Assembly: GCF_004403945.1 (NCBI RefSeq)
Contig: NZ_SOHM01000008.1
Coordinates: 186,743-250,742, forward strand
From: Cryobacterium lactosi
GTDB taxonomy: Bacteria; Actinomycetota; Actinomycetes; Actinomycetales; Microbacteriaceae
Reading direction: 5' to 3'
DNA: 64,000 nt
Shown here: one piece after another, positions 17,336-56,904 of the stretch
Position numbering within the stretch: the stretch's first letter is position 1
How the letters are laid out: every line of letters starts with the position of its first letter
Notes under the pieces: model-generated
The model's input: the letters and a program-made list of their open reading frames with translations, nothing else
Databases searched by the model: none
Told to the model about the DNA's origin: nothing
Program-made: the position numbers and the translations under genes

Positions 17336-18691
17336 TCAGCGGCGCGGGCGTATCAGCGCAACGGCTTCGCAGTCGTAGCTCTGGGAGCTGGCCATGGTGC
17401 CGCGGAACCAGAGCAACGTGACCCGGGTGCGATCGCCGGGCGCCACGATCGGCCGGAGGTTGTCCACGGCGGAGTTCTCGGTGACCGGCGTCCACGACCA
17501 GGTCCGGCCGGCGTCCCCGGTGCGGCCGTGGAAGATCTCGTGGTGCGGCAGCGGCGTTTCGTTGCGCGGGTCGATCGGCAGCGACGCGTACACGGAATCC
17601 AGGTCGTCCGGGTCGATGGCGACGAGCCCCGTGTAGTCCTGCTCGTGCGGGAGCAGCCCCGCTCCGGCCCGAGCGAGCGGATGCGCCCGCCAGGTGCCCC
17701 CTGGCGTGTGCCGGGCGTAGAAGAACCGGTGGTCCGGCACCGGGCGCATCCGCTCGTAGGCCTCGCCGGGGTTGCCCGAATCGGGGGCGCCGGGCCCTGG
17801 GCCGCCGCGCGTCGACAGCACCGCCGCGAGCGTGCCGTCCGCGGCCCGGCGGATGTCGACGGTCCAGGCGTGCGACATGCGCTCCCCGCCCCAGACCGAG
17901 CTGGAGGTCAGCACTGTGCTCGCGGCGAGCACCGTCGTCAGTCTCACCTGCGACGGCGCCTCGCCGGTGAGTACGCGGGTGTCGATGACCGTGCCGTCGG
18001 TGCCGTGCAGCGCTCCCTGCTCGAGGTAGCCGTGGTAGATGCTGTTGTCGTAGTCCCGGGGATGGTGGTCGGTGGTGACCAGATCGATGCGGGTCTGCGT
18101 CGACACGTAGCGGGTGTACCCGTTGACGTAGCCGATCTTGGGTCTCGTGAAGAGCTTGCCCGAATAGTTCCAGGTATCGCCGTCGTCGTCGGAGACGAGG
18201 GCACATTGATCGTCGTTCACCGCGCGCGCGAAGCAGTACAGCCGGCCGTCGAGCTTATGCAGGTTGGAGTAGGTCACCCCGATGCCACCGGTGTGCGGGC
18301 TCCAGTCGAAGCGGCGCTCTGGCCCCCAGAGTCGCGGATCGCCGGGTTCGCTGATACGCCAGCGGGTGAGGTCGTCGGTCTTGTGCTTCGTATAGACGGC
18401 GAGCCAACGACCGTCGGCCCGGCGCCAGAGGGCGGGCGCGTTGTGATCGTCGGCCTCGAGGTTCTCGTGCAGCACGACGACCTCACTCGCCCCGGTGCCC
18501 AGGTCCACCACGGCGAGCTCGATGTTGCCGTCGCGGCGGGCGCCGTCCGGGCCGTCGGCCGAAGCGACGGAGCCCACAAGGAGAAGGCCGGCGCCCGGGT
18601 CCACGACCGCGCGTTCGTCTTGGAACCAGCACCAGGCGGCGTTGTCGTTGATGACAACCGGTGGTGACGGAACGGGTGTCGGCGTCCTCAT
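17336..18691 (-). CDS. BNR/Asp-box beta-propeller protein (sialidase- or lyase-like)
   Basis: About 451 aa from ATG 18691, which has GGGAGG 7 nt upstream; the open frame extends 47 codons further without a ribosome site. Two Asp-box turns are visible (SDDDGDTW; GDAGRTW). The opening NDNAAWCWFQDERAV and DDHNAPALWRR resemble the BNR_4 family, some of whose members degrade polysaccharides. No signal peptide is seen, so it is probably cytosolic. The sialidase arginine triad is not evident, so I do not call it a sialidase. It is about 2 kb from the sialic-acid operon but is not part of it. Confidence 0.75.
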   Translation of the reverse strand: MRTPTPVPSPPVVINDNAAWCWFQDERAVVDPGAGLLLVGSVASADGPDGARRDGNIELAVVDLGTGASEVVVLHENLEADDHNAPALWRRADGRWLAVYTKHKTDDLTRWRISEPGDPRLWGPERRFDWSPHTGGIGVTYSNLHKLDGRLYCFARAVNDDQCALVSDDDGDTWNYSGKLFTRPKIGYVNGYTRYVSTQTRIDLVTTDHHPRDYDNSIYHGYLEQGALHGTDGTVIDTRVLTGEAPSQVRLTTVLAASTVLTSSSVWGGERMSHAWTVDIRRAADGTLAAVLSTRGGPGPGAPDSGNPGEAYERMRPVPDHRFFYARHTPGGTWRAHPLARAGAGLLPHEQDYTGLVAIDPDDLDSVYASLPIDPRNETPLPHHEIFHGRTGDAGRTWSWTPVTENSAVDNLRPIVAPGDRTRVTLLWFRGTMASSQSYDCEAVALIRPRR

Positions 18692-18861
18692 CGGGTGACC
18701 TCCCGGGGAGCACGGAACAGCTCCTGCATCGGGCTCACCTCCATCGGCTTCGGCCAACGGTAGCCGATTGCGGCGATGCCCGGCAAGCCCTTTCCCAGAT
18801 GCTCGCGGGCGTGGCCGGGCCCGGGATGGCACCCCGGCCGACCGGGGGTACGGTGGGTCGC

Positions 18862-20369: not shown

Positions 20370-21047
20370 TCAGCGCGCGACCGATTCCGCGAACCAGGTG
20401 GTGATGGTCGTCGGATGCGTGATGGCCGTGCCGACGACAACGGCGAACGCCCCGGAGTCGATGCAGGCCGACGCTTGGGTCGGGGTGTGAACGCGGCCCT
20501 CCGCGATGACCGGGATCGGCAGGACGGCAGCGAGGATACGCAGCACCTCGAGGTCGGGTCCGTCGGTCTTCGTCCGTTCCCCGGTGTAGCCGCACAGGGT
20601 GGTGCCCACACAGTCGGCGCCCGCTGCGTAGGCGGCGATGCCGTCAGCCACCGACCCCACGTCAGCCATGACCAGGGCGGTCGTCTGCTCGTGGATGCGG
20701 TCGATGGTTTCCGCCAGGCTCAGGCCGTCGGGCCGGGCGCGACGGGTGCCGTCGATGGCGACGATTTCGGCGCCGGCGGCGATCACGGCCAGTGCATGTT
20801 CGAGGGTCGGCGTGATGAACACGTCATCATCGCCGTCCTTCCAGAGGCCGATCTGCGGCAGCGCCACGCGCTCGTGGATCAAGCGGATGTCGTCGAGACC
20901 CTGGGCGCGGATGCCCACGGCGCCGCCGCGCACGGCGGCTTCGGCGATCTGGGTCATGGTCTCGGGGTGCCGCATGGGCTCGGCCGGGTAGGCCTGGCAC
21001 GACACGATGAGGCCGCCCTTGAGCGCGGCGAGGTGGGCGTGCGTCAT
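20370..21047 (-). CDS. nanE: N-acetylmannosamine-6-phosphate 2-epimerase
   Basis: About 225 aa TIM barrel. LKGGLIVSCQAYPAEPM is the NanE opening; GAVGIRAQGLDDI, ALPQIGLWKDG, ITPTLEHALAVIAAGAEIVAIDGTRR (phosphate/catalytic lysine and acidic region), LVMADVGSVADG and VGTTLCGYTGE follow in family order. It converts ManNAc-6-P to GlcNAc-6-P. It is the last gene of the minus-strand operon, 13 nt after the kinase. NagA and NagB, needed for the next steps, are not in the window. Confidence 0.92.
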   Translation of the reverse strand: MTHAHLAALKGGLIVSCQAYPAEPMRHPETMTQIAEAAVRGGAVGIRAQGLDDIRLIHERVALPQIGLWKDGDDDVFITPTLEHALAVIAAGAEIVAIDGTRRARPDGLSLAETIDRIHEQTTALVMADVGSVADGIAAYAAGADCVGTTLCGYTGERTKTDGPDLEVLRILAAVLPIPVIAEGRVHTPTQASACIDSGAFAVVVGTAITHPTTITTWFAESVAR

Positions 21048-21060
21048 GGAATAGATCCGT

Positions 21061-22008
21061 TCACGGTGTCAGAGATGCGGTGTTGGGGAGTGCGGGGGCG
21101 GCGGTGTTGATGAGGGAAGCCGCGCCGACGATGGCCGAGTTCGCGCCCAGGGAGGTCGGCACGATCCGGCAGCCGGCCAGCAGGCCCATCGCTTCGGCGC
21201 GGGCCTGGCTCTCCACGGTATTCCACCAGCGGGAACCGGCGGCAGCGAGGCCCCCGCCGACGATGACGAGGTCGGGGTCGACGCTGTTGATCGAGCCGCC
21301 GATCGAGCGGCCCAGCGCGGTGGCGGCGACGCCGATCACCTCTGCCGCCAGGGCGTCACCGGCGTCGGCTCTGGCGAAGATCTCCCGGGTGTCCCCTGGC
21401 TCGGTTCCGCCGCGGCGCAGATACGCCTGGAGGATCGCGGGCCCCGAGGCGATGACCTCAAGGTGGCCGGTACCGCCGCAGGTGCAGGACAGCCCCGCGG
21501 CTTCCGTGGCGGGGACGTGGCCGTAGTGGCCCGCGGCCCCGTGCCGACCGGCCTGCAGCACGCCGTCGATCACGAGCGCACCGCCGATCCCGGTGCCCGC
21601 GGCGATCACGAGCACCGTGCGCTCGCCCCGGCCGGCGCCGTGCACCGCCTCGCCGATGGCGTGTGCGTGCACATCGTTGACCGTGGCCACGGGCATGCCC
21701 AGCCGGCGCTCGATCTCGGCGCCGAGCCGCGTTCCCGCCCAGCCGGGCAGGGAGCTCGTGGCGAACTGCACGGTGCGGCTCACCGGGTCGATCACACCCG
21801 CCGCGCCGATCCCGCACCCGGCGATCACGACGCCGGGTGCGGATGCGGTGAGGCTGGTGGCGAGGTCGACGATGGTCTGGAGAATGGCCTCCGGACCCTC
21901 GGCCGCCGGCGTCGGCGCTGAGCGCTGCCGGGTGACAACACCACCGGGGGTGACGAGTCCCGCCGCGATCTTGGTGCCGCCGAGGTCGACGCCGAGTGTG
22001 ACTGTCAT
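21061..22008 (-). CDS. nanK: ROK-family kinase, probable N-acetylmannosamine kinase
   Basis: About 315 aa. ATP motif LGVDLGGTKIAAGLV, catalytic Asp in TVNDVHAHAIGEA, GTGIGGALVIDG and the zinc segment SCTCGGTGHLEVIASG. In most ROK kinases the last position of C-x-C-G-x-x-G-C is Cys; here it is His, which may still bind zinc. The start overlaps the lyase stop by 4 bp (ATGA), so the two are coupled. Position between lyase and epimerase supports ManNAc phosphorylation. Confidence 0.88.
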   Translation of the reverse strand: MTVTLGVDLGGTKIAAGLVTPGGVVTRQRSAPTPAAEGPEAILQTIVDLATSLTASAPGVVIAGCGIGAAGVIDPVSRTVQFATSSLPGWAGTRLGAEIERRLGMPVATVNDVHAHAIGEAVHGAGRGERTVLVIAAGTGIGGALVIDGVLQAGRHGAAGHYGHVPATEAAGLSCTCGGTGHLEVIASGPAILQAYLRRGGTEPGDTREIFARADAGDALAAEVIGVAATALGRSIGGSINSVDPDLVIVGGGLAAAGSRWWNTVESQARAEAMGLLAGCRIVPTSLGANSAIVGAASLINTAAPALPNTASLTP

Positions 22009-22931
22009 CGCACCAGCAGGCCTGCGCGGTCGACGATGGCCTGGATCCGCTCGACGGTGTCGCCGGTGAGGGCGGGTACCGGCGGCGACATCCGGTTGGT
22101 CGAGATGATGTCCAGGTGCGCGAGGGCGGTCTTGAACGCGCCGAGACCGGCCGCTTCACCGCTGACGCCGGAGGCCTGGAAGACGATCTCGAACAGTTCG
22201 GACAGTTCGTCCTGGATGCGGCGAACGGCCTCCCAGTCGCCCTCCTTCGACGCGGCGAACAGGTCGACGTAGCGCTTCGGGTCGACGTTGCCGAGGCCGG
22301 GCACCACACCGTCGGCGCCGAGCAGCAGGGCGCCGTCGACGACGACCTCGTGGCCGGTGAAGACCACCAGGGGGCTGCCGGCGGCCCGGTTGGCCATCAC
22401 CAGCCGGCGGAAGCCGACGTCGTCACCGCTGGAGTCCTTGACACCGGCGATGATGCCCTCGGTGCCCAGGCGGATGAGCATGTCGAGGCTGAGCTTGTTG
22501 TGCACCCGCACCGGGACGTCGTAGGCGAAGATCGGCAGCGTCGTCGCGGCGGCGAGCAGACGGAAGTGGGTTTCGATCTCGGCCTGGTTCGGCAGCGTGT
22601 AGAACGGGGCTGTCGCCACGATCGCGTCGACGCCGGCGGCCTCGGCCAGGCGGATCTGCGCCACGACGCGCGCCGGGGTCATGTCGTTGACGCCGGTCAT
22701 GACCTTGACGCGGCCGGCGGAGATGCGCACGGCTTCGGTGAGGACGAGGGTGCGGTCGGCGTCGGAGAGGAAGGCGACCTCGCCGGAGGAGCCCAGCACG
22801 AACAGGCCGTCGACGCCGGCGTCGATGAGGTGGTTGACGAGCCGCTCGAAGGACTCGAGATCGATGGCTCCGTCAGCTGTGAGAGGGGTGACAAGAGGGG
22901 GAACGACTCCGCCGAAGGTGGGTGCTGACAT
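22005..22931 (-). CDS. nanA: DHDPS-family aldolase, probable N-acetylneuraminate lyase
   Basis: About 308 aa. Family motifs: GVVPPLVTPLTADG, GLFVLGSSGEVAFLS, ATAPFYTLP, IFAYDVPVRVHNK with Tyr137, and GIIAGVKDSSGDD with Schiff-base Lys165. Both catalytic residues fall at the same numbers as in E. coli NanA. The GSSGE loop differs from the GSTGE of classical NanA, so another 2-keto acid is possible, but linkage to nanK and nanE supports sialic-acid cleavage to ManNAc and pyruvate. It follows the transporter ATPase by 20 nt. Confidence 0.85.
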   Translation of the reverse strand: MSAPTFGGVVPPLVTPLTADGAIDLESFERLVNHLIDAGVDGLFVLGSSGEVAFLSDADRTLVLTEAVRISAGRVKVMTGVNDMTPARVVAQIRLAEAAGVDAIVATAPFYTLPNQAEIETHFRLLAAATTLPIFAYDVPVRVHNKLSLDMLIRLGTEGIIAGVKDSSGDDVGFRRLVMANRAAGSPLVVFTGHEVVVDGALLLGADGVVPGLGNVDPKRYVDLFAASKEGDWEAVRRIQDELSELFEIVFQASGVSGEAAGLGAFKTALAHLDIISTNRMSPPVPALTGDTVERIQAIVDRAGLLVR

Positions 22932-22951: not shown

Positions 22952-23755
22952 TTAGTTATGGATGAGAAGGCTGGGGGCCGCACCGAGGAGGGTGCGGGTG
23001 TAGGGATCGGTCGGGTTGGTGAAGACCTGCTCTGCAGATCCTTCTTCGACCACGGAACCGGACTTCATGACGACGATCCGGTCGGAGACGTAGCGCACGG
23101 TCTGGATGTCGTGGGAGATGAAGGCCATGCCGAGGTTGAGCCCCACCTTCAGGTCGCTCAACAGGTTGAGGATCTGGGCGCGCACCGACACATCCAGGGC
23201 ACTGGTCGGTTCGTCGGCGATGATGACGTCGGGTTCGAGCGCGAGTGCCCTGGCGATGGCCACGCGCTGACGCTGACCGCCCGAGACCTGACCGGGGAAG
23301 ACGTCGCTGGTGGAGGCGGGCAGCCCGACGAGGTCGAGCAGCTCGCGCACCCGGGCCTCTCGCTGCGCCAGGGTGCCGATGCCGTGCACCCGGAGCGGGT
23401 CCATCAGCACATCGTGCACGCTCATGCGGGCGTTCAACGCGGTAGAGGGGTCCTGGAAGATGATGGACACCGACTTGCCGTAGGCCCGGGCCGTGGCCCG
23501 GTCACGCTTGACGATGTTGCGTCCCTTGAACGACACCGTGCCGCTGGTCGGCTCCTGCAGTCCCACCATCACCCTGGCGAGGGTGGACTTGCCGCAGCCG
23601 GACTCCCCGACGATGCCGATGGTCTCGCCGCGGTTGAGGGTCAGACTCACCGCGTTGACGGCGTGCACCTTGTCCCGGCGGAACAGGGTTCCGGTGCGGG
23701 CGGTGTGGATGACGTGGATGTCGTCGAGCCGCAGAATCTCGTTGGCGGTGCTCAT
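22952..23755 (-). CDS. Oligopeptide-type ABC transporter ATPase (OppF/DppF-like)
   Basis: About 267 aa. Walker A GESGCGKS at residues 50-57, signature VSGGQRQRVAIARAL, Walker B VIIADEPTSALD, and a C-terminal segment PYTRTLLGAAPS as in OppF proteins, although the long FeS-type tail is missing. The start overlaps the fused permease-ATPase stop by 4 bp (ATGA). It would form the second nucleotide-binding subunit of the importer with the ATPase half of the fusion. Context points to sialic acid as substrate. Confidence 0.92.
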   Translation of the reverse strand: MSTANEILRLDDIHVIHTARTGTLFRRDKVHAVNAVSLTLNRGETIGIVGESGCGKSTLARVMVGLQEPTSGTVSFKGRNIVKRDRATARAYGKSVSIIFQDPSTALNARMSVHDVLMDPLRVHGIGTLAQREARVRELLDLVGLPASTSDVFPGQVSGGQRQRVAIARALALEPDVIIADEPTSALDVSVRAQILNLLSDLKVGLNLGMAFISHDIQTVRYVSDRIVVMKSGSVVEEGSAEQVFTNPTDPYTRTLLGAAPSLLIHN

Positions 23756-25737
23756 CGTGTGGTCTCCAGTTCGTCATCCGGTGCCAGCAGGGCATCGTTG
23801 TGGGTGGACACAAGGTGCAGGGTGCCCGTGACCGGCCGCAGCTCCGGGCGGGTGGCCCGTACCGCGTCGCCCGACCTCGACCGTGGCGCGAACCTGTCGC
23901 CGGTGGCGAAGTCGCGCGGCGAGGGCACCGTGCCGGGGATCTGGTGCAGCCGGGTGGCGCCGTCCTCGATGGAGAGCACCGAACCGAGCAGGCCCCGGGT
24001 GTACTCGTGGCGGGGGCTCATCAGCAACGCGGTGGTCGGAGCGGACTCCACCACCTGCCCGGCGTACATGACCGTGATGCGGTGCGCCAGCTCCGCGACC
24101 AACGCGAGGTCGTGGCTGACGAACACCATCGCGAAGCCGAGCTTCTCGCGCAGGTCGTTGAGCAGGTCGATGACCTGGGCCTGCACCGTCACGTCCAGCG
24201 CGGTGGTGGGCTCGTCGGCCACGATCAGCTTGGGGTCCCGGGTGAGAGCCATGGCGATCAGCACCCGTTGGCGCTGTCCGCCGGAGAGCTCGTGCGGGTA
24301 GCTCTTCAGGGTGCGCACGGGGTCCAGGCCCACGAGTTCCAGCAGATCCTTGGCGCTGCGGGTACCGCCGCGCTTGATCAGCTGGCCGAGCTGGGCGCTG
24401 ACGAGCATCGACGGGTTCAACGAGCTCAACGCATCCTGGTAGACCATCGCCATCTCGTGTCCGAGCAGCGCCTGACGCTCCTTGCGGGGCATGGTCAAGA
24501 GGTCGCGTCCCTCGAAGAGGATCTGGCCGGTGATCTCGGCGGTGTCTGGCAGCAGCCCCATGATGGCGAGGCTGGTGATGCTCTTGCCGCAGCCGGACTC
24601 GCCGACCAGGGCCATCGTTTCGCTGGGCCGAACCGAGAAGCTCACGTTGTCGACGATGGCGATGTCCCCGTGCCGATCCGGGAAGCGGATGCTCAGGTTC
24701 TTCACCTCGAGCAGTGGGGCCGCGTCTCCGGTGTACACGAGCCGGTCGGTGCGGGTGGATTCGATCAGTCGCAGCTGGGCCAGGTGAACTTCCAGGGGCA
24801 CGGATGCCGCGGCGACCTCCACCACGGACACCGTCATGGTGGTGGCGCTGTCGGCCGCTGACACGGCCGCAACGGCCTTGGCGTTCTTCGTGGCCGGCTT
24901 CACCAGGGCGTCGGTGAGTCCCTCGGCCAGGATGTTCAGCGACAGCACCGTGATCAGGATCAGCATGCCGGGGAAGAAGGTGGCCCACCAGCCGCCGCTG
25001 AGCAGCAGGTTGCGGCCGGAGGAGATCACGTTGCCCCAGGACGGTGCCGGGTCCTGCACGCCGGCGCCGATGAACGACAGGCTGGCTTCGAAGACGATCG
25101 CGTCGGCGACGAGCACGGTGACGAACACCATGATCGGGGCGGCGCAGTTGCGGGCGACGTGCCAGAACAGGATGTGCGGCAGCCGGGCGCCCATCACCCG
25201 CTCGGCCGAGACGTAGTCCTCACCGAACTGGGCCATCACGTTGGCGCGCACGATCCGGGCGATCTGCGGAACGTAGAGGAACGCGATCGTGCAGATCAGG
25301 ATCGGCAGTTCCTTGCCGAAGACGGCAACGAAGACGATCGCGAGGGCGATGCCGGGGAACGACATGATGATGTCGAGGATCCGCATGATGGTTTCGCTCA
25401 GCCACTTGGATGCGGTGGCTGCGATCGACCCGATGATCGCACCGGCGATGAGAGCCAGCGACGTGGCGCCCAGGCCGATGGCCAGGGAGAACCGGGCACC
25501 GTAGAGCAGCCTGGAGAAGATGTCGCGGCCGTTGCGGTCGGTGCCGAAGAGGTGCTCGAACGAGGGCGGCAGTGCCGGGATGCCCGATTTGAGCGGGTCG
25601 TACGGGGCGATGACCGGCGCGAGGATGGCGAGGAGCACAACCAGGCCGAAGAACGCGAGGGCGATCTTGGAGCCGAGCGGCATGGCGCCGAAGCGCTGGG
25701 CGGGCACGCTCAGTCGTGCGTTGAGTGATCGACGCAT
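23752..25737 (-). CDS. Fused permease-ATPase of the sialic-acid-linked ABC importer (DppC-DppD)
   Basis: About 661 aa. Residues 1-280 form a DppC permease with about six helices and an EAA-type loop (SAERVMGARLPHILFWHV, about 177-194). A 60-residue Ala/Ser/Thr linker leads to a DppD ATPase: Walker A GESGCGKS 379-386, LSGGQRQ about 484-490, Walker B LIVADEP about 504-510. ATG 25737 lies 2 nt after the DppB-type stop; the frame is open upstream only in overlap. The C-terminus carries the EYTRGLLGSV segment of peptide-type ATPases. Such fusions occur in actinobacterial importers; in sialic-acid uptake a comparable organisation has been described in Corynebacterium (recalled). Confidence 0.92.
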   Translation of the reverse strand: MRRSLNARLSVPAQRFGAMPLGSKIALAFFGLVVLLAILAPVIAPYDPLKSGIPALPPSFEHLFGTDRNGRDIFSRLLYGARFSLAIGLGATSLALIAGAIIGSIAATASKWLSETIMRILDIIMSFPGIALAIVFVAVFGKELPILICTIAFLYVPQIARIVRANVMAQFGEDYVSAERVMGARLPHILFWHVARNCAAPIMVFVTVLVADAIVFEASLSFIGAGVQDPAPSWGNVISSGRNLLLSGGWWATFFPGMLILITVLSLNILAEGLTDALVKPATKNAKAVAAVSAADSATTMTVSVVEVAAASVPLEVHLAQLRLIESTRTDRLVYTGDAAPLLEVKNLSIRFPDRHGDIAIVDNVSFSVRPSETMALVGESGCGKSITSLAIMGLLPDTAEITGQILFEGRDLLTMPRKERQALLGHEMAMVYQDALSSLNPSMLVSAQLGQLIKRGGTRSAKDLLELVGLDPVRTLKSYPHELSGGQRQRVLIAMALTRDPKLIVADEPTTALDVTVQAQVIDLLNDLREKLGFAMVFVSHDLALVAELAHRITVMYAGQVVESAPTTALLMSPRHEYTRGLLGSVLSIEDGATRLHQIPGTVPSPRDFATGDRFAPRSRSGDAVRATRPELRPVTGTLHLVSTHNDALLAPDDELETTR

Positions 25738-25739
25738 CG

Positions 25740-26693
25740 TTACACCGTCCGAATCCGTGGGTTGATGAGCAGGTAGAGCATGTCGACGACGATGTTGACG
25801 AGCACGAAGGCCAGCGCAACGGTGAGGGTGACGCCCTGCACCAGGTTGATGTCGTTGTTGGTCACACCGTTGAGGATGAGCTTGCCCATTCCGGGCAGGT
25901 CGAAGATGACCTCGATGATGACCGCGCCGCCGATGAGGTAGCCGACCCGCAGGCCGAGCACCGTCACCGGGGTTATGAGCGCGTTCCGCAGTACGTTGCG
26001 GCTCACCACGACGCTGCGCGGCAGGCCGCTGCCGATGGCGGTGCGCACGTAGTCCCGGTCGAGTTCTTCGACCATCGAGGTGCGCACCACCCGGGTGAGG
26101 GAGGCGGCAACCGGAATGCCGAGCGAGATCGCCGGCAGGATCATGGTGCCCAGCCAGCCCGTGAAGGAGTCGTTGATGTTGACGTAGCCGCCGGTGGGCA
26201 ACCAGCCGAGTCCGAGGGCGAAGTTCTGGATCAGCAGGATGGCGAGCCAGAACGACGGCACCGCGATGCCGGCGATGGACACCACCCGGATGAGCTGGTC
26301 GGGCCAACGGTCGCGGTAGAGGGCCGCGGTCACGCCGAGCGTGAGTGAGAGCACCACGGCGATGAGCAGGCCCATGATGGTCAGCTGCACGGTGAGGGGG
26401 AAGGCGGAGCCGATCAGGGTGGTCACCTTGCTGGCCGGCGGCACGGTGACACCGAGGTTGCCCTGCACCAGATTGGCCAGGAAGGTGAGGTAACGCACGA
26501 TCAGGGGGTCGTTGAGGCCCGCGTCTTCGCGATACGCCTCTCTGGCGGTCTCTGACGAGCTTTCCCCGAGGGCGTTGATGGCCGGGTCTCCCGGCGCGAG
26601 TTGCATAACGAAAAAGACGAGGGCGGTGATGCCCAGGATCATAATCGGGAGCACGGCGATTCGTCGGGCCATGAGCCTGAGCAGCGCGGTCAC
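25740..26693 (-). CDS. Oligopeptide-type ABC permease (DppB-like)
   Basis: About 317 aa, six helices. The DppB opening is seen in RRIAVLPIMILGITALVFFVMQLAPGDPA; the cytoplasmic loop VEELDRDYVRTAIGSGLPRSVV is the EAA-type coupling motif, and VIIEVIFDLPGMGKL is the family's penultimate segment. It lies 60 nt after the binding-protein gene, beyond the strong hairpin at 26722-26747, and ends 2 nt before the fused permease-ATPase starts. Confidence 0.93.
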   Translation of the reverse strand: MTALLRLMARRIAVLPIMILGITALVFFVMQLAPGDPAINALGESSSETAREAYREDAGLNDPLIVRYLTFLANLVQGNLGVTVPPASKVTTLIGSAFPLTVQLTIMGLLIAVVLSLTLGVTAALYRDRWPDQLIRVVSIAGIAVPSFWLAILLIQNFALGLGWLPTGGYVNINDSFTGWLGTMILPAISLGIPVAASLTRVVRTSMVEELDRDYVRTAIGSGLPRSVVVSRNVLRNALITPVTVLGLRVGYLIGGAVIIEVIFDLPGMGKLILNGVTNNDINLVQGVTLTVALAFVLVNIVVDMLYLLINPRIRTV

Positions 26694-26753: not shown

Positions 26754-28361
26754 TTACTGAGCCGTGCGAGCCACGTCGAGGAAGGACAGGCCGGTGAAGG
26801 CCACCGGCTTGAAGCCGGTGATGGCGTCTTCATTCCAGGCCGTCGGCAGCTTGCGGTGCACCAGCGGGTACACCGGGCATTCTTCGGCGATGAGATCGAA
26901 CGCCTTGCCCCACAGCTTCTTCTGCTCGGCGGCATCCGACGTCGCCATGGCGTCGTCGAGGTATCCGGTCAGTTCGGCGAACTCGGCGGAGTCGGCCCAG
27001 CGGTACCGCTTGGTGGGCCAGACGGTGGCGGCGCCGTACCACCAGCGCAGCAGAAGGTCAGCGTCGTTGCCGAACACCGACGGGTCACCGGGGGCGACCA
27101 TCACCGTGTAGTTGCCCTCATCGACGGTCTTGTACTGCGCCCCGGACTGGTTCGTGTCGATGGTGGTGGCAATGCCGGCGGCGTCGAGGTCCTCCTTGAT
27201 CAGCGGCAGCACGTCCTTGACCCAGCTGGTGTCGGTGGCCAGCAGCGTGATCGACAGTCCGTCGACGCCGGCGGCCTTGAGCATCTTCTTGGCCTTGGCC
27301 AGGTCGTAGGTGTAGACCGTCTTGGCCTTCTGGTACGACGGGTGTTCCTTCTGCAGGTAACTGGTGGCCGCGGTGGCCTGGCCGAGCATGCCCGTGTTGA
27401 TGAGCTTGTCGTAGTCGATGGCGTACCGGAATGCCTGACGAACGCGCTTGTCGTCGAAGGGGGCGACCGAGGTGTTGAACATCATGAACAGCTGACCGAA
27501 CGACTGCACGGACTCCACCGTGGCATCCTTCAGCGATGCGACGTCGATGTAGGGCACATCCTCGATGGCCTGCACCCGGCCGGACTGCACGGCGGTGACG
27601 CGGGCGGCGGCATCCGAGAGCAGGTTCCAGGTCATCGCCGCGGCCAGGGCGGGGCGGGCGCCCGTGTAGGCGTCGAAGCGCTCGAACATGATCTTGTCGT
27701 CCTTGACTGCGGACAGCATCTTGTACGGGCCGGTTCCGGTGGGCAGGGAGTCGAAGGCGACCTTGTCGGCCTCGACCAGAGCCTGGGGAACGATCTTGAC
27801 GACCGACAAACGCTCCAGTGCGAGGGCGGTCTCCTGCTTGAGTGTGATCACGACGGTGCTGTCGTCGACCTTGGCGATGGAGTCGACGAACGGCAGGAAG
27901 GTCAGGTACAGCGACGCGTTGGCCGGGTCGAGCACGCGCTGGAACGAGAAGACGACGTCGTCTGCCGTTACCGGGCTGCCGTCGTGGAAGACCGCTCCCT
28001 CGCGCAATACCGCTGTGATGGTCTTGCCCTTGACCGTGGGCAGCTCGGACGCGAGTGCCGCGTAGACCTCGCGGGTGACCGGGTCGAGCTCGACGAGACC
28101 TTCGAGCACGTGCCAGTTGGCGGCGACGGTGACGGCGCCGGTGGTGGTCATCGGGTCGAAACCGGTGGAGAGGGCGTAGGAGATGCCCGCTTCAATGGTT
28201 CCGTTTTTGTCAACGCCCGGGCCGTCGGCGGTGGCCGGTGCCACGCTGTTGGTAGAGGCGGGGCCGCTGCAGGCTGACAGTGTTGCCACCAAGCCCATTG
28301 CGCCTGCGACCTGGAGGAAGGCCCTACGGCTAGTCTTCCCCTGAAGTGTTTCGTGAAGCAT
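26754..28361 (-). CDS. Family-5 substrate-binding lipoprotein with Tat signal (sialic-acid-linked)
   Basis: About 535 aa. The N-terminus has a twin-arginine motif TSRRAFLQ and then lipobox LSAC with Cys31, so it is probably folded before export by Tat and then lipid-anchored. The body has SBP_bac_5 features: FDPMTTTGAVT, LVELDPVTREV, FHDGSPVTADDVVFSFQRVLDP, TGTGPYKM, DDKRVRQAFRYAIDYDKL. It is first in the operon that continues with permease, fused permease-ATPase, ATPase and nan enzymes. AAAGG precedes the ATG. The ligand is inferred as sialic acid from the downstream genes. Confidence 0.92.
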   Translation of the reverse strand: MLHETLQGKTSRRAFLQVAGAMGLVATLSACSGPASTNSVAPATADGPGVDKNGTIEAGISYALSTGFDPMTTTGAVTVAANWHVLEGLVELDPVTREVYAALASELPTVKGKTITAVLREGAVFHDGSPVTADDVVFSFQRVLDPANASLYLTFLPFVDSIAKVDDSTVVITLKQETALALERLSVVKIVPQALVEADKVAFDSLPTGTGPYKMLSAVKDDKIMFERFDAYTGARPALAAAMTWNLLSDAAARVTAVQSGRVQAIEDVPYIDVASLKDATVESVQSFGQLFMMFNTSVAPFDDKRVRQAFRYAIDYDKLINTGMLGQATAATSYLQKEHPSYQKAKTVYTYDLAKAKKMLKAAGVDGLSITLLATDTSWVKDVLPLIKEDLDAAGIATTIDTNQSGAQYKTVDEGNYTVMVAPGDPSVFGNDADLLLRWWYGAATVWPTKRYRWADSAEFAELTGYLDDAMATSDAAEQKKLWGKAFDLIAEECPVYPLVHRKLPTAWNEDAITGFKPVAFTGLSFLDVARTAQ

Positions 28362-28398: not shown

Positions 28399-28411
28399 GA
28401 CGTCAGACGTC
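28399..28411. promoter_or_regulatory. FadR-type GntR operator, copy 1
   Basis: GACGTCAGACGTC contains the odd palindrome ACGTCAGACGT (28400-28410). Its GTC-A-GAC core fits the GTM-N-KAC rule for FadR-subfamily GntR sites. It lies midway between the binding-protein start (28361) and the regulator start (28462). The reverse complement shares 12 identical bases with the site at 32278-32289. Confidence 0.7.
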
Positions 28412-28461
28412 CTACGTGTTAGATTGAAGTTATACATACTCGAGTGAAAGGTCAAGCACGG

Positions 28462-29211
28462 ATGCTGAATATCGACGATTCGAAAGCAGGAGTTTTCGCC
28501 TCCGACACATCCCGGAAACGAAGCTCCGTGACCGACCAGATCAAGGATTTCATCCTCACCAAAGGCCTGAAGTCCGGCGATCTCATGCCCACGGAGACCG
28601 AAATCTGCGCTGAACTGGGGGTTAGCCGGTCCAGCGTTCGTGAGGCCATCCGAACCCTTGCGGCGCTTGACATCGTGGAAGTCAAACACGGTTACGGCAC
28701 CTATGTCGGCCAGCTCTCCCTTGCCCCCCTGGTGGAGGGTTTGGTCTTCCGCGGCGTTCTGCGCCCGCAGGATGACTTCGCGGCGCTGCGCGAAGTGATC
28801 GAGGTGCGCGAGGCCCTCGACATCGTCATGGCCCAGCAGATCATTGACGCCTTGCACGGCGAAACCGACGAGATCCTCGAGGGCCTGGTGTCGACCATGG
28901 TGGAGAAGTCGGCGTCCGGCACGGCCTTCGCCGAGGAAGACCTGGCCTTCCACACCCGGTTGCTCGCGTATCTCGACAACACCCTGGTCGGCCAGCTCGT
29001 CACCGCATTCTGGGAGATCAACACGGTGCTGTACCCGAAGCTCGGCATCGCCCCGGCCGCGGACATCGACGACACCGCCCGCGCCCACGGCGCGATGCTG
29101 GAGGCTGCCAAGGCTGGCGACCTGGAGGCTTATCGGGCTGCGGTTGTGGCTCACTACCAGCCGCTTCGTCGCTCCCTGGAGAAGGCCGCGCTGAAGAGCG
29201 TCGTCGACTAA
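28462..29211 (+). CDS. GntR-family (FadR subfamily) regulator of the sialic-acid regulon
   Basis: About 249 aa. N-terminal winged HTH (VTDQIKDFILTKGLKSGDLMPTE, ELGVSRSSVREAIRTLAAL, VKHGYGTYVG) and a C-terminal all-helical FCD domain (EVREALDIVMAQ, EEDLAFHTRLL, ARAHGAMLEAAKAGD with metal-type Asp/His residues). ATG 28462 has AAAGG 9 nt upstream and is preferred to the GTG at 28444. It is divergent from the importer operon and functionally parallels NanR. The operator copies at 28399 and 32278 suggest it also controls the Tat/FAH/esterase operon. Confidence 0.9.
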   Translation: MLNIDDSKAGVFASDTSRKRSSVTDQIKDFILTKGLKSGDLMPTETEICAELGVSRSSVREAIRTLAALDIVEVKHGYGTYVGQLSLAPLVEGLVFRGVLRPQDDFAALREVIEVREALDIVMAQQIIDALHGETDEILEGLVSTMVEKSASGTAFAEEDLAFHTRLLAYLDNTLVGQLVTAFWEINTVLYPKLGIAPAADIDDTARAHGAMLEAAKAGDLEAYRAAVVAHYQPLRRSLEKAALKSVVD

Positions 29212-30176
29212 CCGTTCGCCAACGTCCGTCGCGCGATGTCGAGCACCAGCTGCTCGTCATCGACACCACCGCCCTCGTGGCCGTTGAACGGCCACACGGT
29301 GATCTCCTTCGGTCCGTCGTAGGCGTTGAATGCACCGAAAACGGTCGAGGGCGGGCAGATCGGGTCCATCTGAGCCGCCGAGAGCCACACCGGCGCTGAG
29401 GCGCGCCTGATGAAGTTCACGCCGTCGAAGTAGGCGAGCGTCTGCAGTACCGCGCCGGCTCGGTCGCGGTACCAGGACAGGTAATTCGCGATTTCCTTGT
29501 AGGGGTTGGAATCGGTGATCATGATCGCCCGGGGGAAGTCGCAGAGGAACGGCACCCGGGCCGCCACCGCTCGCAGGCCCGGCACCAGCCCGGCCACGGC
29601 CAGCGCGAGTCCGCCGCCCTGGCTGATGCCGGTGACGAGTACCCGGGCCGGATCGGTCAGCGGCAGTTCCCCGGCCGCGTCGACCAGCCGCACGGCATCG
29701 ACGATCAGTCGCCGGTAGTAGTACGTCTCCCGGGAGTCGATCCCGCGGGTGAGGAAGCCGGGAACCTGGGGCCCGGAGCCGGTGCGGTCGGGCGTGCTCC
29801 CCCGTGAGCCGCTCCAGGCTTGACCCCGGGTATCCAGTTCCAGATGCGCGTAGCCCGCCGAAGCCCAGAGCAGGTTCTCGATGGCATCACCCCGCCCGCG
29901 TCCGTAGCCGTGGAACTGCACGATCGTGGGCAGGGCATCCGTGGTGCCGGCGGGCACCCGCAGCCAGGCCTTGATCCTCTCCCCCTCGAAGCCCGAGAAG
30001 GTGAGGTCGTAGACGTCAAGGGTGGCCAGGCCGGCGTCGACCTTCTGAACGGCCAGCGCCAGCGGATGCCGGCGGGACGACCGCAGGGTGTCCGACCAGA
30101 ACTCGTCGAAGTCGTCCGGGTCGACCTGGGCGCTCCGGTAGGCGTGGAGCTCCGCTTCGGGCAGGTCCAACAGCAT
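29208..30176 (-). CDS. CE7-family acetylesterase (acetylxylan esterase-like)
   Basis: About 322 aa alpha/beta hydrolase. CE7 hallmarks: HGYGRGRGD, the family-specific DTRGQ, nucleophile GISQGGG (Ser185), MDPICPPST (Asp271) and NGHEGGG (His300). There is no signal peptide. These enzymes remove acetyl groups from short acetylated sugars after uptake. It ends the Tat/FAH operon, 8 nt after the FAH gene, and its stop overlaps the regulator's stop region by 4 bp. In this regulon it could deacetylate O-acetylated sialic acids or another acetylated glycan fragment; that substrate is inference. Confidence 0.9.
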   Translation of the reverse strand: MLLDLPEAELHAYRSAQVDPDDFDEFWSDTLRSSRRHPLALAVQKVDAGLATLDVYDLTFSGFEGERIKAWLRVPAGTTDALPTIVQFHGYGRGRGDAIENLLWASAGYAHLELDTRGQAWSGSRGSTPDRTGSGPQVPGFLTRGIDSRETYYYRRLIVDAVRLVDAAGELPLTDPARVLVTGISQGGGLALAVAGLVPGLRAVAARVPFLCDFPRAIMITDSNPYKEIANYLSWYRDRAGAVLQTLAYFDGVNFIRRASAPVWLSAAQMDPICPPSTVFGAFNAYDGPKEITVWPFNGHEGGGVDDEQLVLDIARRTLANG

Positions 30177-30184
30177 CCGTACGC

Positions 30185-30787
30185 TCAGCGGACCGTGTTG
30201 CGAAGGGTGCCGATGCCGGGGATGGTGATCGCCACCTCGTCACCCGGATTCAGCTCCGCCGCGGTGTTCGGCGACCCGGTCATGACCACGTCGCCCGGCT
30301 CCAGTGTCATCCACCGGGTGACGTAGACGAGGGTGTCGACCACCCGGGAGGGCAGGTTGAAGGTGCCTGAGCTGGCCACGACCTGGCCGTTCACCTCCAC
30401 GACGATCTCGAGGGCTTCCGGGTCGGCGATCTCGGTCTCGATCCACCCGCCCAGCGGCGTGTAGTTGATGCCGGCCTTGCTCTCGAAGTTCTTGTTGTCC
30501 ACGGCGTTGCGCTCGGCGCTGGTCACGTCGTTCACGATCGTGTAGCCCAGCACGTGCTCGAGCGCGTTCTCCACCGTCAACCGGCTCGCCGTGCGGCCGA
30601 TGACGACCGCGAGCTCTCCCTCGGCCACGACGGTACCCGCATCCGCCGCCAGCACGATCTCGTCGCCGTCGTTGGCCACGGTGCGCACCGACTTGAGCCA
30701 CGCCTGTACGGGTAGAGCGGCCTGGGGGTCGGCGTTGTGACCGATGCCTACAACGAGGCCGGGGGTGCTGGTGCGGGCGATCTTCAC
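30185..30787 (-). CDS. Fumarylacetoacetate hydrolase-family protein, catalytic core only
   Basis: About 200 aa. FAH core: VVGIGHN, GELAVVIGRTA, VLGYTIVNDVTSAERN, KGIN-like KAGINYTPLGGWIETE, FNLPSRVVDTLVYVTRWMTLEPGDVVMTGSP, PGDEVAITIPGIGTLRN; metal-binding Glu/Asp residues are retained. The usual N-terminal segment of about 55 residues is absent, and MKIART joins the core directly. The paralog at 56173 has that segment but with a stop codon in it. Its start overlaps the tatB stop by 4 bp. It should hydrate or hydrolyse a 2-keto-3-deoxy sugar-acid type substrate. Confidence 0.88.
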   Translation of the reverse strand: MKIARTSTPGLVVGIGHNADPQAALPVQAWLKSVRTVANDGDEIVLAADAGTVVAEGELAVVIGRTASRLTVENALEHVLGYTIVNDVTSAERNAVDNKNFESKAGINYTPLGGWIETEIADPEALEIVVEVNGQVVASSGTFNLPSRVVDTLVYVTRWMTLEPGDVVMTGSPNTAAELNPGDEVAITIPGIGTLRNTVR

Positions 30788-31092
30788 GGGGTGGAGCCTT
30801 TCCTGGAGGGGGTGGAGGGGGTGGAGAGGTCGGGCGGCGTTTCGTCCAGCAGGGCATCGCGGATGATCCGGCGGGGGTCGTACTGGCGTGGGTTGAGCTT
30901 CTTCCAGTCGATGTCGTCGAATTCCGGGCCCATCTCGTCCTTGAGGCGGTCCTTGGCACCGTTGGCCAGTTCTTTGGCCTTGCGCACGAACCGGCCGAGC
31001 ACGGCGGCGTAGTGCGGAATGCGTTCGGGGCCGAGCAGGAACGCGGCGATGATCACGATGATGATGAGCTTGTCGAACGTCAATCCGAACAT
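30784..31092 (-). CDS. tatB: Sec-independent translocase subunit TatB
   Basis: About 102 aa. A single N-terminal helix (LIIIVIIAAFLLGPERIPHYAAVLGRFVRKAKEL) with the G-P-E-R-I-P hinge typical of TatB, an amphipathic helix, then DEMGPEFDDIDW, which matches actinobacterial TatB tails. It binds Tat signal peptides together with TatC. It lies 72 nt after tatC and overlaps the FAH gene by 4 bp. In many actinobacteria tatB is unlinked from tatAC; here all three are together. Confidence 0.9.
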   Translation of the reverse strand: MFGLTFDKLIIIVIIAAFLLGPERIPHYAAVLGRFVRKAKELANGAKDRLKDEMGPEFDDIDWKKLNPRQYDPRRIIRDALLDETPPDLSTPSTPSRKGSTP

Positions 31093-31164
31093 GGCGGCAA
31101 CTCCTTCACTGGCTTGTCTTCAATCACTGTCTGGTCTTCAAGCTCGCTGGAGCAGCTCGGCCGG

Positions 31165-31965
31165 TCATCGGAGGCCGGCCAGTTCTTGGTCGATCCGGTC
31201 GGAGGCCTTTCGGGCCCGTCGGTCGTGGATCCAGGCGATGAAGCCGGCCACGAAGTAGAGGAGCATCATCGGGACGGCGAGCAGGAACATCGACATCACG
31301 TCGGCGGCGGGGGTGGCCACAGCGGTGAAGACGATCACCACGACGATGGCCATCCGCCACGAGCCGAGGATCGATCTGGCGCTCAGGACGCCGGCGAAGT
31401 TGAGCAGCACCAGGAACACCGGCAACACGAAGGCGATGCCGATGGCGACCACGAGCTTGAGCACGAAGTCGTAGTAGCCCTTGGCACTGATGATCGCCGC
31501 CGAGTCCTCCGGGGCGAACGAGGTGAGCAGGGCGACCATATTGGGCAGCACGAACCAACCTGCCGCGCAGCCGGCCAGGAACAGCGGCACCGCGGAGGCG
31601 ACGAACGCGATCGCGAACTGCTTCTCCCGGCGGGCAAGGCCGGGCATGAAGAATGCCCAGATCTGGTAGAGCCAGATCGGTGAGGAGACCACGACGCCCA
31701 CGGTGACGGCGATCTGCATTCGAAGATCGAACGCCTCGGAGATGGTGGTGAAGTTGAGCTCGGAGGTGCGCCCCTGGGCCTGGGCGATGTTCCCGATCGG
31801 AACACGAAGGGCGTCGAGCACAGGCTCGGAGAGCAACCAGCCCACAACGGCGCCCACGAGGACTCCGATGGCTGCGCGGGTAATCCGCTTGCGCAGCTCG
31901 ATCAGGTGTCCGCCCAGCGTCATCCTCCCGTCGCGGGCGGACTTCACCTTCGTGACGGTGGTCAC
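31165..31965 (-). CDS. tatC: Sec-independent translocase subunit TatC
   Basis: About 266 aa, six helices. The N-terminal TLGGHLIELRKRITRA is the conserved signal-peptide contact region, with FDLRMQIAVTVGVVVSSPIWLYQIWAFFMPGL and the conserved acidic residue before helix 4 (TSFAPED), then FVLPVFLVLLNFAGVLS. It starts 6 nt after the tatA stop. Together with the neighbouring tatA and tatB it makes a complete translocase inside an operon with catabolic genes. Confidence 0.93.
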   Translation of the reverse strand: MTTVTKVKSARDGRMTLGGHLIELRKRITRAAIGVLVGAVVGWLLSEPVLDALRVPIGNIAQAQGRTSELNFTTISEAFDLRMQIAVTVGVVVSSPIWLYQIWAFFMPGLARREKQFAIAFVASAVPLFLAGCAAGWFVLPNMVALLTSFAPEDSAAIISAKGYYDFVLKLVVAIGIAFVLPVFLVLLNFAGVLSARSILGSWRMAIVVVIVFTAVATPAADVMSMFLLAVPMMLLYFVAGFIAWIHDRRARKASDRIDQELAGLR

Positions 31966-31971
31966 GATGGG

Positions 31972-32223
31972 TCAGATCCGGGTGGAGGCGCGCGTCGGGA
32001 GGGGGATGGGCTCGGCAACCGGAGCGCCGGGGTGGGCCGGTCCGGCCGTCGGGTCGGGCGCATCGGTGCTGTCGTCGTCTTTCAGGGTCTTGACCTCGCT
32101 CTTGAAGATGCGCATCGACTGACCGACGCTGCGGGCCAGGCCCGGGAGCTTGGGAGCGCCGAACAACAACAGGACAATCGCCAGGATGATGACCATGTGC
32201 CATCCGGTGAGGTTTGCAAGCAT
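31972..32223 (-). CDS. tatA: Sec-independent translocase subunit TatA
   Basis: About 83 aa. One membrane helix (MVIILAIVLLLFGAPKLPGLARSVG) with the F-G-x-x-K-L-P hinge and amphipathic helix SMRIFKSEVKTLK, then an acidic and proline-rich tail: the TatA layout. It is the first gene of the operon; the operator at 32278-32289 lies 55-66 bp upstream of its start codon. Confidence 0.92.
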   Translation of the reverse strand: MLANLTGWHMVIILAIVLLLFGAPKLPGLARSVGQSMRIFKSEVKTLKDDDSTDAPDPTAGPAHPGAPVAEPIPLPTRASTRI

Positions 32224-32277
32224 GATTTCGCCTCTCGTCTGTGGGATTCATCACGGGGGGTAGAACCGGGATGTAGA

Positions 32278-32289
32278 ACGTCTGACGTC
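32278..32289. promoter_or_regulatory. FadR-type GntR operator, copy 2 (Tat operon)
   Basis: ACGTCTGACGTC is identical over 12 bases to the reverse complement of the site at 28399-28411 and includes the palindrome ACGTCTGACGT (32278-32288) with a GTC-T-GAC core. It lies upstream of tatA. The exact match 4 kb apart, in front of two operons flanking the GntR gene, supports common control. Confidence 0.7.
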
Positions 32290-32451
32290 ATACGCTACTG
32301 GAATTCGGTGGGAATGCAAGAGGATGCCGTTGATTGGTCAGACATGCGAGGTTCACCCCTCCCGGATGAGGCGCGCCTGCCTGCTCGGGGGAAGTGTCCC
32401 CATCAGACAACCGAGGGCGTCCGCAGGGCGTGCCCGCCGAGAGGAGCCGAG

Positions 32452-56172: not shown

Positions 56173-56904
56173 CTAGACGATGGTGTTGCTCAGTGTGCCG
56201 ATGCCGGCGAGGGTGATGTCGACGGTGTCACCCGGCTGCACGGGGAGGTCGGTGCCGGGGGCCCCGGTGAGCACCACGTCCCCGGGCTCGAGGGTGAGCC
56301 ACCTCGTCACGTAGACGAGCGTGGCGGCGACCGAGGAGGGCAGGTTGAACGAGCCCGAGTTGACCACGACGGCACCGTTGATGACCACCTGGGTGGCAAC
56401 GTTCTCGGGGTCGGCCAGTTCGGTTTCGATCCACGGGCCGAGCGGGGTGTAGTTCTTGCCGCTCTTGCCCTGGAAGTTGCGCTGGTCGACCGGGCACTGG
56501 TCGACGTTGGTGACGTCGTTGGCCACGGTGTAGCCGAGCACGGCGTCGAAGGCGTTCTCGAGAGTGAGATTCGTGGCCGTGGAACCGATCACGACGGCGA
56601 GCTCGCCCTCGATGTTCACGGTGCCCACGTCGCGCACGGCGTAGATGTCGTCGCCGGTGCCGGCGACGGTGTGCACCGACTTGTGCCAGGCCTGCATGGG
56701 CAGGGGGTTGCCCGGCTCGTTGTGGCCGATGCCGACCACCACGCGCGGGTCGACCGCGGCGAGCAGTACGGCGTCCGCGGCCGGGATCGACTCGCCGGTG
56801 TAGACGAGCGGTGCGGCGAACGGGTCGGTGACGACGGTCCAGCTGTCACCGGTGGCGACAGCGTAACGCGGGCCGGTCGGGGTTTAGAGTCGGGCGATGC
56901 GCAT
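56173..56904 (-). pseudogene. Fumarylacetoacetate hydrolase-family gene with premature stop at codon 7
   Basis: ATG 56904 has AGGAAAG upstream and reads MRIARL, then TAA (56884-56886); the same frame then continues with TPTGPRYAVATGDSWTVV and into the FAH core (VVGIGHNEPGN, GELAVVIGSTA, YTVANDVTN, GKNYTPLGPWIETELADP, VYVTRWLTLEPGDVVLTG). All downstream sequence is intact, so the stop is recent or a sequencing error. A GTG at 56742 could restart at the core, which is just where the paralog at 30185 begins, but it has no ribosome site. Confidence 0.8.

Follow-up and report, generated by a model that had tools for sequence, protein, structure and literature searches.

One repressor probably governs both a sialic-acid importer and the Tat translocase that would export the importer's binding protein, acting at two copies of a putative operator within 64,000 nucleotides of Cryobacterium lactosi DNA (the window, the whole stretch that was analysed). 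Some relatives probably share this arrangement. A preliminary description of this DNA had proposed a single regulon covering the importer, the nan genes, and a Tat/FAH/esterase operon. Conserved sites, the operators of relatives, and a held-out scan, in which the second site is weak, lend good comparative support to such a GntR/FCD regulon.

Gene content of the region

The features, in window positions, are as follows.

20370..21047, minus strand: nanE, above the curated cut-off
21061..22008, minus strand: ROK kinase gene, nanK by context; NanK models below cut-off
22005..22931, minus strand: DHDPS-family gene, nanA by context; NanA model below cut-off
22952..23755, minus strand: importer ATPase gene (satD-like)
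23752..26307, minus strand: satC-like ORF with fused permease and ATPase domains; true start internal to the ORF
25740..26693, minus strand: importer permease gene (satB-like)
26754..28361, minus strand: satA-like binding lipoprotein gene, match to solved SatA
28269..28361, minus strand: SatA twin-arginine lipoprotein signal, TSRRAFLQ...LSAC
28399..28417, plus strand: putative operator A, GACGTCAGACGTC core and third box TACGT, in the divergent gntR-satA intergenic region
28462..29211, plus strand: NanR-like GntR/FCD regulator gene; start ATG at 28462, upstream GAAAGG (by eye)
29208..30176, minus strand: AXE1-family acetylesterase gene, family match
30185..30787, minus strand: FAH-family gene, family match
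30784..31092, minus strand: tatB-like gene; best TatB model 77 bits, cut-off 96
31165..31965, minus strand: accessory tatC; TatC 172.8 bits, cut-off 132.7
31972..32223, minus strand: accessory tatA; TatA 80 bits, cut-off 72
32277..32294, plus strand: putative operator B, ACGTCTGACGTC and third box TACG, upstream of tatA

The importer is SatABCD-like and predicted to take up sialic acid. Its binding protein matches SatA of Haemophilus ducreyi (5za4/5z99/5yyb) with 571 bits over residues 53-533 (481 residues), and 5Z99 is SatA with bound Neu5Ac (PMC11364026). A motif search places a twin-arginine (RR) motif ahead of a hydrophobic stretch in the window's SatA, a signal absent from the preliminary description. 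A strict RR search of the window ORFs of at least 100 amino acids returned three matches, of which only that in SatA resembles a signal.

Of the three nan enzymes described initially, NanE is identified firmly and the kinase and lyase at family level only (ROK and DHDPS); their predicted nanK and nanA roles are based on gene context because the corresponding models fall below cut-off. A BNR_4 repeat protein is encoded near the nan operon (17336-18832, minus strand), with no operator match nearby.

The account of a complete Tat translocase holds for TatA and TatC, and TatB is recognized only below its cut-off. The FAH enzyme and acetylesterase assigned to the same operon were recovered as family matches. 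This Tat set is an extra one, because the genome (G000) carries another, separate tatC on contig C31. A second FAH-family gene (56179-56748, minus strand) is 62% identical to that of the tat operon.

The gene at 28462, located between the two operons, is FadR-type as first described: its product has the PF00392 (GntR helix-turn-helix) and PF07729 (FCD) domains above cut-offs. Its score against the NCBIfam NanR model (PRK03837) is 62.3 bits, far below the cut-off of 260, and we regard it as a predicted repressor that is NanR-like by role and lies outside the NCBIfam NanR subfamily. Relatives at an E value of ≤1e-45 occur in 12 of 398 genomes of a family sample and in 88 of 396 genomes of an order sample, the genome itself being counted in both. 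Seven loci emerged from a scan of genome contigs, and the five close ones come from Cryobacterium zongtaii, Cryobacterium sp. N22, Frondihabitans sucicola, Agromyces italicus, and Curtobacterium pusillum.

Two copies of one operator

The 12-mer ACGTCTGACGTC occurs in the window with 0 mismatches at 28399-28410 (minus strand) and 32278-32289 (plus strand), bearing out the claim of an identical 12-bp word on opposite strands at both promoters, and the 13-bp odd palindrome GACGTCAGACGTC occupies 28399-28411. The copies also lie where they had been placed, before the divergent regulator/importer operon (A) and before tatA (B). When A and B are compared on the same strand, 15 of 17 positions are identical (ACGTCWGACGTCMTACG); the opposite-strand match noted earlier covers 12 bases. 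Only the exact pair stands out, since with up to two mismatches the 12-mer has 7 matches in the window against a shuffle mean of 10.2, which is no enrichment.

A genome-wide search, which the preliminary description had suggested, found the word to be rare. ACGTCWGACGT occurs at three places in the 4.66-Mb genome, the two promoters and one site within a pyruvate kinase gene, and its backward-read control occurs at one. A longer consensus, ACRTCWGAYGTCNKAYG, was composed after both sites were known, so that A and B fit it by construction; they are its only places with 0 mismatches, and the sole place with 1 mismatch overlaps A. When up to two mismatches are allowed and both strands counted, it matches 23 places, and its control matches 9. 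A sigma-70 scan detected a promoter at neither operator, and -10-like elements next to operator A, seen by eye only, were discarded because the scan supports none.

Conservation on the importer side

On the importer side, the operator is conserved and is a candidate for binding by the regulator. Upstream of gntR, a block of the form GACrTC-W-GAyGTC, with kAyGT as a third box after it at a 7-bp pitch, is present in 18 of 21 distinct loci, or 20 of 23 when L106 and L107, duplicates of L100 and L101, are included (both were excluded from the 80-locus set used below). The consensus operator of FadR-subfamily GntR regulators is an odd palindrome with a GTm-N-kAC core. Across 45 distinct sites, the operator has an odd-palindrome core of this type, rTC-W-GAy, in which the G of GTC is replaced by A in 31. 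The odd palindrome with a GTC-N-GAC core described initially is therefore correct in its odd form and incomplete, as a third box adjoins it and GTC can be ATC. An even register (CGTnnGACGTCnnACG) was rejected: although the tat-side site of G023, another Cryobacterium, reads as a perfect even palindrome of 16 bp, it is the odd core with its third box that persists across the wider set.

A matrix was built from 14 distinct importer-side sites and no tat sites, and a match was defined as a score of >14 at ≤300 bp from the gntR match. Of 80 orthologous loci, 59 have such a match near gntR, namely 19 of the 20 around the training set and 40 of the 60 others; the 300-bp limit excludes L229, whose site is at -351. 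The 21 loci without an operator include some without detected nan genes (e.g., L204, L243, and L248). The 59 sites are oriented in one direction in 36 cases and in the other in 23. Importer-side sites score 26.4 to 40.0 and the tat sites 21.1 (window) and 15.3 (L046); in a control of 20 single-base window shuffles, scanned on the forward strand alone, no score exceeds 12.6.

In relatives, operators also precede sialidase genes (L101, L103, L108, L110, and L111), nagB-like genes (L108 and L109, their translations judged by eye), an MFS gene at the head of a second nan operon (L101), and a GFO/IDH/MocA oxidoreductase gene (L103). The sialidases were considered as Tat cargo and rejected, their signals having, as judged by eye only, a weaker RR motif or none. 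Within the nan loci of genus g29, DUF4862 proteins are encoded beside GFO/IDH/MocA oxidoreductases (L109, 6245-7201, minus strand; L108, 12238-13338, plus strand), making DUF4862 a candidate sialic-acid enzyme family.

The tatA-side site

Operators precede tatA in three g29 loci and the divergent esterase/tatA pair of Agromyces (L102). The genes under the operator are single tatA genes in g29 and Agromyces and the full tatACB set in Cryobacterium. Throughout the 80 loci, nan-linked tatA has a putative operator centered 33 to 88 bp before it in 8 of 8 cases (matrix scores, 15.3 to 24.3). Site B is retained at four Cryobacterium loci, despite much intergenic divergence in one. The block is retained exactly in L099 and L100, and it persists with one core change in G023, where about 25 bp are lost and the region before tatA is altered.

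A held-out model, R2, excluded tat sites and drew on ten importer-side sites from beyond the clade of the window; one of them (L047) belongs to a nan locus that is distant but in the same genus. At an E value of ≤10, with 150 of 1,122 first-look candidates scored, its scan of G000 returned only A (E = 0.016, both strands) and B (E = 1.02). R2 matches site B in G446 (E = 0.90) and G454 (E = 0.88) and did not recover the diverged B site of G023. G004 has two R2 matches away from its nan locus (E = 0.27 and 1.67), the former a better match than B of the window. With a model that includes tat sites (R1), 37 of 38 matches in eight genomes are at nan loci, the remaining one being in G342. Although its held-out score is weak, site B is a persuasive putative operator because of its position and conservation. 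The housekeeping Tat genes of G000 were rejected as regulon members, as neither R2 nor ACRTCWGAYGTCNKAYG gave an operator match at that locus.

Twin-arginine signals and linked tat genes

A strict Tat-type SBP is encoded at 34 of the 80 loci, and 8 of these have linked tat genes; linkage was not found in the 28 with another signal or in the 18 in which no SBP was found. Linkage here covers about 10 kb around gntR, less at contig ends; 20 weak-RR loci count as non-Tat, three of which (L227, L245, and L246) may be Tat-type, and the SBP of L202 is doubtful (25% identity, 7 kb distant). Within Microbacteriaceae, 8 of the 11 loci whose SatA is Tat-type have linked tat genes, versus 0 of 6 with another signal (one further locus has no SBP; P = 0.009, Fisher exact test, a value that overstates the association because few independent lineages are involved). 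The eight linked loci span only three genera.

A dedicated Tat set is evidently not required, as 26 of the 34 Tat-type SatA loci have no linked tat genes; G148, for example, has a Tat-type SatA and an operator without a nan-linked tatA. Three genomes of the same genus as the window (G004, G024, and G031) have a nan locus with a 59% identical regulator, a non-Tat SatA, and no linked tat genes, and the SatA of G024 is 58% identical and lacks an RR signal. One Curtobacterium locus (L264; G453:C84:41915-42058) has tatA with tatC and a tatB-like gene on the gntR contig, but about 16 kb away, beyond the counted range and without an R2 match.

Proposed mechanism and alternatives

The NanR-like repressor encoded at 28462 would bind two three-box operators, in the gntR/satA divergent region and ahead of tatA. 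Once sialic acid or a breakdown product had released the repressor, the SatABCD-like importer with nanA/K/E and the extra Tat/FAH/esterase operon would be turned on together. SatA would be exported through Tat by means of its twin-arginine signal, and this export is the likely reason for which a translocase belongs to the regulon; induction of the importer would thereby supply export capacity for its own binding protein. We infer the binding, the repression, the inducer, and the role of SatA as a substrate of this particular Tat set. If correct, the arrangement is a compact, regulated export-import unit in which one repressor controls an importer and the translocase of its binding protein. Tat specificity could be tested within one genus, by comparing the Tat-type SatA with tatACB to the 58% identical SatA without RR signal or linked tat, and the operator offers a handle for annotating sialic-acid regulons throughout the order.

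Alternatively, the second operon might belong to the regulon for the sake of its FAH enzyme and esterase, which might serve, for instance, in O-deacetylation of sialic acids, with the tat genes as passengers or serving other cargo. Nan loci without tat also hold an esterase (L103 and L195) or FAH (L101 and L103), and most Tat-type SatA loci lack linked tat genes. Against this, no esterase or FAH gene was found at L109, L110, and L111, where an operator precedes tatA, and the RR signal of SatA supplies a cargo, so that we consider this explanation unlikely. Recognition of the sites by a protein other than the 28462 regulator is very improbable: the genome has eight further matches to the regulator at an E value of ≤0.001, and binding by the 28462 product is a prediction, but the operator adjoins orthologous gntR genes throughout the order and the scans of G000 reveal no further site. 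A chance match at site B, to which the copy of the 11-mer inside pyruvate kinase and the unenriched mismatch-tolerant word might point, is scarcely credible given its conservation in place in Cryobacterium and the tatA-side operators of other genera.

Relation to known systems

The type of repressor proposed here is already known. The Bifidobacterium NanR is a GntR-type repressor of genes for sialic-acid uptake and catabolism (PMC4746261, citing Egan et al. 2015); repressor type and target genes are alike, and Tat genes are unmentioned in that report's account of the regulon. Bifidobacterium breve possesses SatABCD (PMC10017367), and a nanR is named in Corynebacterium glutamicum (PMC4974736). 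Escherichia coli NanR is likewise a GntR/FCD-type repressor with an operator of three repeated boxes, (GGTATA)3 (PMC8012715); in the window, however, the box sequence differs, an odd palindrome is made up of the first two boxes, and the protein is under the NCBIfam NanR cut-off. Compared with SatABCD of H. ducreyi (PMC11364026), whose SatA matches, the window differs in that its binding protein bears a Tat lipoprotein signal and tat genes are linked. The phoD-tatAdCd genes of Bacillus subtilis similarly encode a Tat set beside, and induced with, a Tat substrate, but there the signal is phosphate starvation and the substrate a secreted phosphodiesterase, whereas in the window they are probably sialic acid and the importer's binding lipoprotein (PMC3068169). 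Titles and abstract openings, a weak negative with subscription literature mostly outside their coverage, contained no report linking Tat to sialic acid, and the Tat pairing may accordingly be new.

Origin of the Tat genes

Within 25 genomes of the genus, the window's own included, a TatC >90% identical to that of the window occurs only in G000 and G023, and the same holds for the regulator. In FastTree phylogenies of short alignments, the nan-linked TatC and TatA cluster with the housekeeping Tat proteins of genus g29, not with those of Cryobacterium itself (supports, 0.83 and 0.965), which hints that the Cryobacterium tatACB may have been transferred from a lineage near g29. A broader reading would see here a Tat translocase that is substrate-inducible and dedicated to a nutrient-binding lipoprotein, a pairing that arose more than once, with tatACB of Cryobacterium drawn from near g29; we offer it tentatively, judging it slightly more doubtful than not.

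A nan link for the extra Tat sets of other Cryobacterium was rejected, as the neighbors at L147, L149, and L151 (the 3 annotated of ten Tat loci) are not nan genes; they comprise either ferritin-like and molybdopterin oxidoreductase genes or a set that includes a dioxygenase-like gene. At L147 and L149, the ferritin-like and molybdopterin oxidoreductase genes adjoin an extra tatA-tatC pair; additional Tat sets are a recurrent feature of the genus, and their neighbors vary.
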